From positions 1 to 45,387 of the IMG/VR virus record IMGVR_UViG_3300010389_000031: a stretch of 45,387 nucleotides of DNA, one strand, 5' to 3'. Under the pieces are notes generated by a model. That model saw only the letters and a list, made by a program, of their open reading frames with translations. It ran no database searches and was not told the origin of the DNA. Below, in pieces: positions 33,303-37,704 of this stretch. Made by a program: the position numbers and the translations under genes. The first letter of the stretch is position 1. Each line of letters begins with the position of its first letter. Origin of the DNA: a virus.

Positions 33303-33722
33303 ATGGCTTCTCTTAACGAAACGGGTATGGGGATTGGTGATTTTGCTCTTAACTTGTTAGAGCAAGAGAAGACCAATCCTCAACCTGTTTCTCGCAAAGC
33401 CCCCGTGAGGGGTAATGTGCCAGACATAGAGAATGTACAAGTTCTTCAAGAGGATGTTGACGCAGTTCTCTCTAACTCTTTTGGAGTTGAAAAAGATTCA
33501 TCACCAAAGGTCAACCTTCAAGAAGAAAGACGGAAGCAACTTAAAGAGCAGATTCAAGTTAAGATTAATGAACTAAAAGAACTGCTTAACGAGTTAGGTG
33601 TAGGGACAACAACCGTAGGGAGTCTAGGCGCTCCTAATTTTGCAGGAGGATGTAGTCATGAGTCTGATAAAGGTCGTAAGAAATCTAAGAGACGAGCAAA
33701 GGTTAGAAGAAAAAAAGTCTAG
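33303..33722 (+). CDS. Head-cluster protein with capsid-like GVGTTTVGS motif
   Basis: A 139-residue protein with a helical middle (~72-97, rich in K, E and L) and a basic tail (GRKKSKRRAKVRRKKV). Residues 99-109 read GVGTTTVGSLG; residues 55-65 of the major capsid protein read the same but for one Ile/Leu change. In both, an L-x-E tripeptide, the T4 gp21 cleavage pattern, stands just before (LNE at 95-97 here). I do not recognise a family. A role in prohead assembly, perhaps as a core protein cleaved by the protease, is inferred. Its 3' end overlaps the next gene by 65 bases in another frame. Confidence 0.5.
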   Translation: MASLNETGMGIGDFALNLLEQEKTNPQPVSRKAPVRGNVPDIENVQVLQEDVDAVLSNSFGVEKDSSPKVNLQEERRKQLKEQIQVKINELKELLNELGVGTTTVGSLGAPNFAGGCSHESDKGRKKSKRRAKVRRKKV

Positions 33723-34110
33723 TAGATATCCTAACGGTAGGGGTGGCTACAAGAGAAAGGACAAACTCACAGCAAGAAAAAGTCGTGTCCCTATTTACAA
33801 GACTATAAAAGACGGTCTAAAGAAGACAAGCCCTGGTTCTATATTTTCTACAAAGGGATCCTATAGAATGTATGTCACCACCGCTGGTGGTTGGGGCAAG
33901 AGCAAGCAGCAGAGAGTGTCTGGTAGAACCGCTAAGGGATTTACTCCAGGGAGTGCTACTCCTAGTGCTGATTGGAAAAGCATCCGTAGCCACGCTGCAA
34001 GGACCCGTGTTAAGCATGGGGGATCGACTGAAGGTAAACTGAAGGCTGCTGCTCGAAGAGAGAAAGATCAGCCTAAAAAATATAAGGCAAAAGCCAAAAG
34101 GAGAAAATGA
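33658..34110 (+). CDS. Strongly basic small head-cluster protein (gp68 position)
   Basis: The ATG at 33658 is chosen because AGGAGGA (33644-33650) lies at the right distance; a TTG at 33640 in the same frame would contain that site inside the gene. The 150-residue product has about 44 Lys/Arg against about 10 Asp/Glu, ending in KKYKAKAKRRK, with a small central region (GSIFSTKGSYRMYVTTAGGWG) that could fold. T4 gp68, a basic prohead core protein, has the same place before gp21. DNA packing or scaffold binding is plausible (inference). It overlaps the previous gene by 65 bases and the protease start by ATGA. Confidence 0.6.
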   Translation: MSLIKVVRNLRDEQRLEEKKSSRYPNGRGGYKRKDKLTARKSRVPIYKTIKDGLKKTSPGSIFSTKGSYRMYVTTAGGWGKSKQQRVSGRTAKGFTPGSATPSADWKSIRSHAARTRVKHGGSTEGKLKAAARREKDQPKKYKAKAKRRK

Positions 34111-35465
34111 TGTTACTAGAAGATGTATTTATTATTGAAAACTTACAGGTTCTAAACGAGGACACAGACAAGGGAAAGATCATGAAAGTTCGTGGTGTTT
34201 TCCAGCGTGCAGACGAGGAGAACAACAATGGTCGTATCTATCCTAAGGCTTTGCTTGAGCGTGAGATCACCAAACTATGCGAGTCCATGAAAGGTCGTCG
34301 TCTTATGGGTGAGTTAGATCACCCTCAACACGATAGCGTAAAACTTTCTAATGTCTCTCACCTTATCACTAAGTTAGATGTTAAGGGTAATGATATTATT
34401 GGTGAGGCTGAGATCCTAGACACTCCCATGGGTAAAGTTGCCAAGGCACTTATCGAGGGCGGTGTTCAGGTAGGCATCTCTTCACGCGGGATGGGTACTC
34501 TATCCGAAGGTCAAGACGGTAAGCGTTATGTCAACGAAGACTTCCGCCTTATCACCTGGGACCTCGTTGCTGACCCTTCAACCCGTGGCGCTTTCCCTGC
34601 ACTGTCTGAGTCTCGTCAAAGCAGACAGAGCCTTCTTGTAGAGGAGATCATGAACGAGGTTCTTCCTCGCGTCACCAAGGAAAAGGTTTTTGCCACTCTT
34701 CTAACTGAGAGTCTTAACGAGGCCAAGATGAAGAAGGCTAAGAAGAAGAAGGCTTCCAAAGGTCTTGATCCCGTTGGTAAGGAAGATGCAGACATCAACA
34801 ACGATGGTAAGGTAGATGGCACTGACGGTTACCTTAAGAACCGTAGAAAGGCTATCGGTGCTGCTATGGGCAAGAAAGGCAAGAAGATGAAGAAGGGCAA
34901 GAAGTCCAAGTTTGCTGCTCTTAAGGAGATGCTCAGTGCTCAAGAAACACAAACCGCAAGAACAAACAAGAGAAGGTCTAGGAATATACAAGCACCATCA
35001 CAGTTTGCAAAAGAAACTGCTAAAGCAGGTATGAGCGATTCAACTATCTTTGCTCGCGTCGGTGAAATTCTTGAAGGTAAAAAGAAACCATTTCAAACTC
35101 TTAGAAGGGATGTTGCCGCCTTTGACGCACAACATAAAAGAACTTCTGGTATGAGGCTACCTTCTAGAGAGACGCCACCTTCTAGAGAGACGCCACCTTC
35201 TAGAGGTACGCTACCAGAGAAGCCCGCATCTGGTAGAAAATATGGACCAGTAAAGCAAGGTGATTCAGGGAGAGTATCAGACTCTACTTTGTTTGCTCGC
35301 GTTGGTTCTGTTCTTTCAGAGGTAACTGCTGCTGAAAAGGCAAGCCGAGTTATGAACCTTCCTCCAAATAGACAATCCGAAATGCATAGAAGAAAAATGG
35401 AAAGGGAAGGAAAGGATATCTACGGTAGACCTCTTCCTAAGAGAACTGTTACTAAGAAAAAATAG
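34107..35465 (+). CDS. 21: Prohead core protease (gp21-like) with long C-terminal extension
   Basis: A 452-residue protein. Residues ~1-170 are a gp21-type serine protease: RADEENNNGRIYPKALLE, then GELDHPQHD with His72, then GVQVGISSRGMGTL with Ser125/Ser126 as candidate nucleophile, then DLVADPSTRGAFPAL. T4 gp21 (212 residues) cuts scaffold and capsid after L-x-E and then itself. The extra ~240 residues are lysine-rich and carry an EF-hand-like loop (DINNDGKVDGTD, 229-240), a duplicated SDSTIFARVG / SDSTLFARVG segment (310-319, 391-400) and three six-residue PSRETP-type repeats. The extension may act as scaffold, like a protease-core fusion. AAGGAG stands before the start. Confidence 0.88.
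   Translation: MMLLEDVFIIENLQVLNEDTDKGKIMKVRGVFQRADEENNNGRIYPKALLEREITKLCESMKGRRLMGELDHPQHDSVKLSNVSHLITKLDVKGNDIIGEAEILDTPMGKVAKALIEGGVQVGISSRGMGTLSEGQDGKRYVNEDFRLITWDLVADPSTRGAFPALSESRQSRQSLLVEEIMNEVLPRVTKEKVFATLLTESLNEAKMKKAKKKKASKGLDPVGKEDADINNDGKVDGTDGYLKNRRKAIGAAMGKKGKKMKKGKKSKFAALKEMLSAQETQTARTNKRRSRNIQAPSQFAKETAKAGMSDSTIFARVGEILEGKKKPFQTLRRDVAAFDAQHKRTSGMRLPSRETPPSRETPPSRGTLPEKPASGRKYGPVKQGDSGRVSDSTLFARVGSVLSEVTAAEKASRVMNLPPNRQSEMHRRKMEREGKDIYGRPLPKRTVTKKK
35160..35213 (+). repeat. Three tandem 18-base repeats inside the protease gene
   Basis: Units at 35160-35177 and 35178-35195 are identical (CCTTCTAGAGAGACGCCA); 35196-35213 differs at a few bases. They encode PSRETP, PSRETP and PSRGTL in the C-terminal extension of the protease. 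The near-identity suggests recent slippage, so unit number may vary between relatives. Confidence 0.9.
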
Positions 35466-35522
35466 TAAAAAACAACGACATCTATAATAACTGTATAGAT
35501 AACAATAGATTGGAGTACAATC

Positions 35523-36146
35523 ATGGATAAAAAGAAAATAGAAGACATCGCTCAGTTACTTCCTGAGGGCATTACCGAAGAGACTATCGTTGAAATCGCT
35601 GGTGTTATGGAAGAACTAATCGAGCAAAGAGTACAGGAGGAAGTAGGTGGACTTACCGATAAGGTCTTCGCCTATCTATCCATGAAGCGTCAACAGATTC
35701 AAGAGTCTGCCTTAGAGGAACTTCATGAGTCTAACGATGTTTATCGTGATGCACAACGATTCCGTGAACTTATGGGCTTCATGGCCGTCGAGTTCCGTCC
35801 TGAGCATATTGATGCTGAGAGTGAGCGCAGACTAGCAGAGGCTGGTGATCTTGTTAATGATAACGAGGTCCTTGCCCGTGAACTATCTGAGTCACTGAGA
35901 GAGCAAGAGCGTCTTGCCAAAACAGTTCAACTGTTAGAATCTAAAGTCTCGAAGCGTGAAAGAGAAATCGAATCACTCAACGAGAGCGTACATTTTCTAT
36001 CAGAAGAAAAGGAGGCTACACTGTTTAAGTCTACAGAGCAGGCCGTAGTCATTACTGAAAATGTAGACGAAGAGGTTGAGGATGAACCACTGGAAAGTAT
36101 GGGCAACCAATTCTTAACCGAAGAAATGCTCAAGTTAATGAAGTGA
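35523..36146 (+). CDS. 22: Prohead scaffold core protein (gp22-like)
   Basis: A 207-residue acidic protein, nearly all helical with coiled-coil heptads (~110-165, SLREQERLAKTVQLLESKVS), lying between the protease and the capsid gene exactly as T4 gene 22. It contains many L-x-E sites (LPE, LAE, LSE, LNE, LTE) suited to removal by the protease after assembly. It is shorter than T4 gp22 (269). The end, FLTEEMLKLMK, may bind the capsid. TGGAG lies before the start, and the 57-base leader (35466-35522) holds CTATAATAACTG, a possible -10 element, without a clear -35. Confidence 0.8.
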   Translation: MDKKKIEDIAQLLPEGITEETIVEIAGVMEELIEQRVQEEVGGLTDKVFAYLSMKRQQIQESALEELHESNDVYRDAQRFRELMGFMAVEFRPEHIDAESERRLAEAGDLVNDNEVLARELSESLREQERLAKTVQLLESKVSKREREIESLNESVHFLSEEKEATLFKSTEQAVVITENVDEEVEDEPLESMGNQFLTEEMLKLMK

Positions 36147-36171
36147 GCATAAACTTTAAGGAGTTGTAGTT

Positions 36172-37704
36172 ATGGATATTATGGAAATGGGTGCCAGCGA
36201 TGACCTTGTAAACAAGTGGGGTCCCGCACTAGACGGCATCGAGAATGATTATACCAAGAGAGTTACTGCACAACTACTGGAGAACCAACTTAAGTCAGCC
36301 CAGCAGGATGATCGTCTAGACGAAGCCGCTGTCGGTGTTGGCACCACTACCGTTGGTAGCATTGGTACTTTCCAGAAGTTTGCATTCCCTCTCGTTCGTC
36401 GGGTCTTCCCCGAACTTATCGCTAACAGCCTTGTTAGCGTTCAGCCTATGAGCGGTCCCGTCTCACAGGTCTTCTATCTTGGTGCTGCTAGAGTATATGG
36501 CGGAAATCGTCAGAACCTCTACAGTAAGTATCAACTCACCTACCGTGGTCTAACCACGGGTGAGCCTAACTTCCAAGATCGTGGTGTCTCTAGCGCCGAT
36601 GAACTTCTTGCCGCTGGTCGTACTTCACAAGACTTCGGTAGTTCCGCTCTTTCCGCTGATTTCGCTACTGGCACCAACATGGCTGATGCTATTGCTTCTT
36701 GGCCCAACAGCAATTTCGCTCAAGGCTGGTCAGTATCTGCTGGTGAAAACCTTGCTGGTACTGCTATCCCTGAGGTCACCATGAGCATCGAGCAACAGCC
36801 CGTGATTGCACGCACCAAGAAGATGCGTGCTCTCTGGACTCTCGAAGCCTCTCAGGACCTTAAGGCTTACCACAACCTTGATCTTGAGCGTGAACTTACC
36901 GATATTCTTGGTAAGGAGATCCGTCTGGAGGTTGACCGTGAACTCATTGAGAACCTTCGCGGTCTTGCTTACGACCTTACTGGCGCAGCAGGCGATCTTT
37001 ACAGCAAGGATATGCTTGATCAAGCCAACAACACTTCTGGCCTAGGTAACTTCGCTGGTGTTAACAATGATTCCAACTTCGGTGACTTCATCTTTGAAGG
37101 CTCCACTGGCTCAGGTATCACTGGTATCCCTGGCACCTACTCAGTCGGTAAGAACACTGTTCTTTTCGACTTTGCCGCAGATGCTTTTAGCACTTTCGCT
37201 CCTCGCCACATTGGCGACAAGTACGCTAACCTGCTTGCCACGATTAACTTTGCTTCACAGGACATTTACAAGACCACTCTTCGTGGTGCTGGTAACTGGA
37301 TTATCTGTGCTCCAATCATGGCAACTATCCTAGAGAGTGCTTCTCGCCTCACTGGCGGTATCGAGTCCTCTGACGCCCCAACTAACTTCGGTCCTGGCAC
37401 TATCCAGTTCCGTGGTAAGTTCATGGGTCGCTACGACCTCTTTGTCGATCCCCTCTACCCAGAGGGTGAACTTCTCATGGGTTACAAAGGTGCTGGTCCT
37501 ATGGACGGTGGTTTCGTGTATGCTCCATACATCCCCTTCCAGGCCCTACCCACCATCACTGACCCCGAGAGTTTCCAGCCCAGAAAGGGCATCCTTACCC
37601 GTTACGGTAAGGTTGCGATCAACCCCGCATCCCGCTACTACAGAGTTATCCGTGTAGTTGGTGCCGAGGGTCTTACCGCTGGTGCTTTCGATAATGTAGT
37701 CTGA
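36172..37704 (+). CDS. 23: Major capsid protein (gp23-like)
   Basis: A 510-residue HK97-fold capsid protein of the T4 gp23 type: FPLVRRVFPELIANSLVSVQ, then PMSGPVSQVFYL, typical of the N-terminal region after processing, and RKGILTRYGKVAINPASRYY near the end. T4 gp23 has 521 residues and is cut after Glu65. Here the LDE at 49-51 followed by AAVGVG gives a likely cut after Glu51, leaving a mature protein starting AAVGVGTTTVGSIG. Codons are strongly biased (CGT/CGC for Arg, few AGA), unlike the AGA-rich baseplate genes, which fits high expression. AAGGAG precedes the start and a strong terminator follows. Glu51 as the site is inferred. Confidence 0.92.
   Translation: MDIMEMGASDDLVNKWGPALDGIENDYTKRVTAQLLENQLKSAQQDDRLDEAAVGVGTTTVGSIGTFQKFAFPLVRRVFPELIANSLVSVQPMSGPVSQVFYLGAARVYGGNRQNLYSKYQLTYRGLTTGEPNFQDRGVSSADELLAAGRTSQDFGSSALSADFATGTNMADAIASWPNSNFAQGWSVSAGENLAGTAIPEVTMSIEQQPVIARTKKMRALWTLEASQDLKAYHNLDLERELTDILGKEIRLEVDRELIENLRGLAYDLTGAAGDLYSKDMLDQANNTSGLGNFAGVNNDSNFGDFIFEGSTGSGITGIPGTYSVGKNTVLFDFAADAFSTFAPRHIGDKYANLLATINFASQDIYKTTLRGAGNWIICAPIMATILESASRLTGGIESSDAPTNFGPGTIQFRGKFMGRYDLFVDPLYPEGELLMGYKGAGPMDGGFVYAPYIPFQALPTITDPESFQPRKGILTRYGKVAINPASRYYRVIRVVGAEGLTAGAFDNVV

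Follow-up and report, generated by a model that had tools for sequence, protein, structure and literature searches.

The locus raises the question of why a small protein encoded among the head genes of an uncultured T4-like virus carries, just after a predicted maturation site, an almost exact copy of a segment of the major capsid protein. The window analysed here is the whole stretch of 45,387 nucleotides of the IMG/VR record IMGVR_UViG_3300010389_000031, and the genes of its head cluster, with the features inside them, lie on the plus strand. As a sequence-only reading of this DNA had claimed, GVGTTTVGSLG at residues 99−109 of a 139-amino-acid (a.a.) protein (ORF 33303−33722; motif 33597−33629) and GVGTTTVGSIG at residues 55−65 of the gp23 major capsid protein (ORF 36172−37704; motif 36334−36366) are identical in 10 of 11 positions. 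A six-frame scan of the window found the motif nowhere outside these two peptides. This was the highest 11-mer identity over 406 protein pairs of the window, the runner-up pairs reaching 8/11; shuffling the small protein 400 times never gave more than 7/11.

The two copies use the same codon at only 2 of the 10 amino-acid-identical positions, versus 4.0 expected from usage, and across 16 genomes 37 codons were shared at 121 identical positions, where 49 were expected. This agreement below expectation indicates that the match is kept at the protein level, as had been proposed, and recent DNA copying, by gene conversion or by recent duplication, was rejected on these counts. We also rejected gp24 as the source of the motif: T4 gp24 starts with STTTNSNSIGRPN after its cut, but the gp24 proteins of Aeh1 and Acinetobacter 133 lack TTT..SIG.

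The head cluster runs in the order acidic 145-a.a. protein, 139-a.a. protein, basic 149-a.a. protein, gp21 protease, gp22-like protein and gp23. The acidic core-protein gene (32851−33288), assigned to the gp67 position by its place and acidity, has homologues preceding the small gene in most loci and encodes a conserved CPLCES[TV]L segment. This segment gave a weak match to the Rad50 zinc hook, below the cut-off, and the protein could dimerise via a metal. The basic protein gene (33658−34110; 149−150 a.a.) was placed in the gp68 position by its location; its first 65 bases (33658−33722) are shared with the basic-tail coding sequence that closes the small gene, an overlap also present in close relatives, and similarity of its product to T4 gp68 was not measurable. 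The gp21 prohead protease gene (34107−35465) was identified by Peptidase_S77 (E 1.6e-25) and phrog_207 (E 1e-52). The protease has 452 a.a., versus 212 in T4, including a long, Lys-rich C-terminal extension, and it holds a dockerin/EF-hand-like DxNxDGxxDG stretch, with a weak Dockerin_1 match below the cut-off, whose sequence suggests calcium binding. The gp22-like scaffold gene (35523−36146) lies between gp21 and gp23, with 82−92% identity in close relatives. A 116-a.a. gene (32424−32774) directly precedes the cluster, and in four related loci (L044, L045, L049 and L050) the gene in this place looks, by eye, like a PAAR-type spike tip. The region 28617−32420 encodes a 1267-a.a. protein with a Cys-rich N-terminal half that contains an acidic DADNNGLCDDEEED stretch; a Pfam search with this protein gave no match.

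The 139-a.a. protein had no relative in the named phage collection or in the PDB, and only chance-level matches in Pfam and PHROGs. Scans of IMG/VR in which the small protein, gp23 and the basic protein served as queries revealed many uncultured T4-like contigs with the same gene order, the small gene preceding those for the basic protein, gp21, gp22 and gp23. We listed 88 distinct small genes, defined mainly by their position directly upstream of the basic gene; among them, L042, L122, L141 and L203 are other inserted genes and L047 is in the wrong frame. The analysis covered the 78 distinct homologues that were supported by the profile and whose locus also encodes a capsid protein. In the L122/L141 branch, an extra gene with a product ending in EHLxVDQSGxxDxWQ lies between the small and basic genes, and it is present in L042 too.

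The family has a common anatomy: an N-terminal GDFA, a DIS/DIE segment, a charged helix-like stretch, phi-x-E, the core T-T-[V/T]-G-x-[I/L]-G and a basic tail. The 33303 protein has an acidic front part with several gp21-type sites. Its N-terminal segment MGIGDFALNLL (33327−33359) contains the GDFA that is near-invariant across 22 diverse homologues; a core-targeting role for this segment, with the T4 CTS as the analogue, is our guess. The DIENVQV segment (33423−33443; family consensus DISxVEV) has a D that is invariant in the same 22. Its longer form, DIENVQVLQE (33423−33452), resembles IIENLQVLNE near the gp21 N-terminus (34107). IENVQVLQE/IENLQVLNE was dropped as a second copied segment between the small protein and gp21, being strong in the near clade only. 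The charged stretch (33510−33593) ends in the predicted gp21 site LNE|LGVG (33585−33593; LNE at residues 95−97), and the motif is followed by the basic tail (33630−33719).

Cleavage by gp21 at this site is predicted from an invariant Glu and from the known rule for T4 gp21, which cleaves after L/I-x-E and requires little else (PMC9026906). Across 22 diverse members (23−66% identity to the first), the only invariant columns were A9, D42 and E110, the last of these being P1 of the predicted cut; in the larger alignment, the P1 column held E in 71 of 78. A phi-x-E stood at most 13 residues upstream of the core in all 78 homologues, so that the association with a gp21-type site, originally noticed as an L-x-E before each of the two motifs (LNE in the small protein; LDE, residues 49−51, in gp23), holds family-wide. 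In a set of 43 homologues, 41 had their last phi-x-E no more than 7 residues before the core, where shuffles would give 7.4. The motif and the basic tail together would form a 42-a.a. fragment with a net charge of +10; among the 78 homologues, the predicted fragment had a median length of 43 a.a. and a median net charge of +8, the charge was positive in every case, and 72 fragments had no further phi-x-E site. The proposal that both mature proteins would begin with nearly the same peptide applies to the motif, common to both, but not to the very ends, as the predicted starts LGVGTTTVGSLG and AAVGVGTTTVGSIG differ in the first 1−3 residues.

The core kept the order T-T-[V/T]-G-x-[I/L]-G in most of the 78 homologues, and a motif-less homologue beside a motif-bearing capsid was not clearly found among them; what did occur were degenerate copies, for instance TTTTGMGG. 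In 39 of 42 homologues, the best match to the capsid core fell in the zone just after phi-x-E. A capsid 8-mer score of at least 20 was reached by 80% of the small proteins, versus 0−10% for the acidic 145-a.a. protein, the basic protein, gp21 and gp22 of the same phages; because these four have no such core, a general protease recognition motif was rejected. An unanchored profile−profile comparison of the small family with gp23 found the same place (E 0.003), with an hhalign probability of only 10%. The alignment spans only 27 columns around the cut; homology beyond the cut-site region, as expected of a truncated gp23 paralogue, was not found. When each small protein was compared with the whole capsid protein, the best shared 9-mer fell in the motif in only 27 of 40, indicating that weak copies are not findable without an anchor.

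The small protein and the capsid protein track each other at the clade level. Core identity was 4.53/7 within a genome versus 4.07/7 between genomes, an excess with p 1e-4 under free permutation and p 6e-4 when permutation was confined to capsid clusters (distance 0.3). The co-variation across relatives thus stands for clades but not for close relatives, where it was not significant (p 0.11−0.25 below capsid distance 0.25). The signal came mostly from core positions 3 (V/T) and 5 (S/Q/K and others). A nearest-neighbour sign test gave 27/33 (p 1.6e-4), a result that is not fully independent because most deep pairs share one clade split; much of the tracking reflects this one deep split, TTVGK versus TTTGQ, and a small number of events could account for much of it. 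Individual lineages carry their own versions: YGPGTTTVGSIG in both proteins of L010, TTTGQLG in both of L182, the pair NSVGRNG/NTVGRMG in L198, and a core Gly missing from both in L208. In L122, which shares its contig with L140, and in its 51% relative L141, the likeness extends into the capsid arm, the small protein reading GT[S/N]QKF and the capsid GTFQKF. Most small proteins have no counterpart of the arm proper, FQKFAFP.

The ORF at 36172−37704 encodes a T4-type gp23 (Pfam Gp23 E 3.9e-77; T4 gp23 in the PDB E 1.7e-45 by sequence), and a model built from 66 sequences (pLDDT 64) had T4 gp23 as its top Foldseek matches, with E down to 2e-13 and a TM of ~0.4; an earlier 12-sequence model (pLDDT 34) was of no use. 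By alignment to T4 gp23, the motif lies at about T4 residues 82−92, in the N-fist region (residues 66−91; PMC7136217) and at the start of the N-arm. The predicted gp21 site LDE|AAVG (36316−36324), after which the sequence suggests that gp23 is cut, retains phi-x-E before the motif in aligned homologues. Residues 47−79 of the 66-sequence model were of low confidence and the capsid motif was disordered, as expected for a segment that is ordered only by its neighbours. In T4, the gp23 N-terminal regions are disordered within the prohead; as it expands, they shift to the outer surface, where they clasp neighbouring subunits, whereas the portal-facing N-fists stay disordered for want of a partner (PMC9958956, PMC7136217).

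This behaviour of the T4 arm makes docking at arm sites the most likely role for the copied segment. We tentatively propose, as a reading that may well be right although we stop short of calling it probable, that the 33303 product belongs to the prohead core, in the gp67/gp68 neighbourhood, and that the basic peptide left by its processing bears a copy of the gp23 N-terminal arm and docks where such arms dock. gp21 would cut it after the last phi-x-E, together with gp23, releasing a peptide of ~42 a.a. with a capsid-arm-like head and a DNA-attracting tail. The peptide would dock at sites able to take the arm, such as those that lack a capsid arm or have yet to receive one, and there may tie the shell to the packaged DNA or tune expansion. 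More speculatively, such maturation-released basic peptides might fill arm sites from inside or during expansion, link the shell to DNA or time expansion, and co-evolve with the arm. In T4, most peptides of the core proteins exit the head, and the 33303 peptide might do so too.

The main rival to arm-site docking is that the shared segment docks a third partner, such as a gp21 exosite or a scaffold protein, before or during cleavage, so that both substrates are brought to the protease, and that the peptide has no later role. The position of the motif just downstream of the cut in both proteins and the invariance of the cut Glu in the small family agree with this idea, which we nevertheless regard as unlikely, since cut and core stand ~1 to 13 residues apart in the small protein and 2 to 11 apart in gp23, a variation ill-suited to subsite recognition. 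Against it, too, other core proteins of the same phages do without the core, T4-type proteases need little past L/I-x-E (PMC9026906), and the L122/L141 similarity extends to QKF, beyond the usual reach of protease reading.

The likeness might instead come by descent, with the small protein as a remnant of a duplicated capsid gene that inherited the prodomain end, cut site and arm from gp23 and is under general constraints only. The profile comparison does align the end of the preceding helix-like stretch together with the motif, and T4 gp24 is itself a gp23 relative; but the first ~80 residues have no similarity, the small protein changes in parallel with the capsid, and the core is kept though the flanks of both families have fully diverged, which requires selection. 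We consider this explanation decidedly improbable as a full account, although a capsid-gene duplication could be the origin of the segment and is compatible with the arm-docking reading. Convergence on a simple flexible linker after the cut, with no common binding partner, would suit a Gly/Thr-rich segment that is disordered in the gp23 model and co-varies weakly in close relatives. It would not lead one to expect the specific core order in most of the 78 homologues, the 10/11 identity in the window or lineage-specific copies such as YGP, GQLG and NxVGR, and it appears the least probable of these explanations.

Like T4 gp67 and gp68, the 33303 protein is small, has multiple L/I-x-E sites and occupies the same place in the head cluster before gp21−gp22−gp23, and its C-terminal region is basic as in gp68; unlike them, it carries a copy of the gp23 N-terminal segment. 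Its gene precedes gp21 and has gp21-type sites, no portal gene was identified adjoining it, and comparison with T4 gp68 gave no support for homology (hhalign probability 0.2%). The T4 internal proteins IPII and IPIII also share a short common peptide, the CTS, beside a gp21 site (PMC9026906, PMC9958956); the CTS sits on the side of the cut that is removed (PMC9026906), ahead of the site, whereas the peptide copied in the 33303 protein follows the cut and is shared with the capsid protein. With the gp23 N-fist/N-arm the peptide shares the sequence core and the position after the maturation cut, but its copy is carried by a separate, small protein that lacks the HK97 fold. The Far-T4 uncultivated phages are likewise uncultured T4-like viruses with a conserved structural module around gp23, and a term search of that report found no mention of prohead, scaffold or gp67 (PMC4360716). 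In the open-licence literature searched, we found no account of a core protein that bears a copy of the capsid arm. The means by which core proteins of T4-like phages recognise the shell have been described as unresolved (PMC9958956). If the arm-docking reading is true, a core protein that copies the moving arm of the capsid protein, conserved over a wide clade, would provide a defined peptide and a defined site for probing core−shell contact and the control of expansion.
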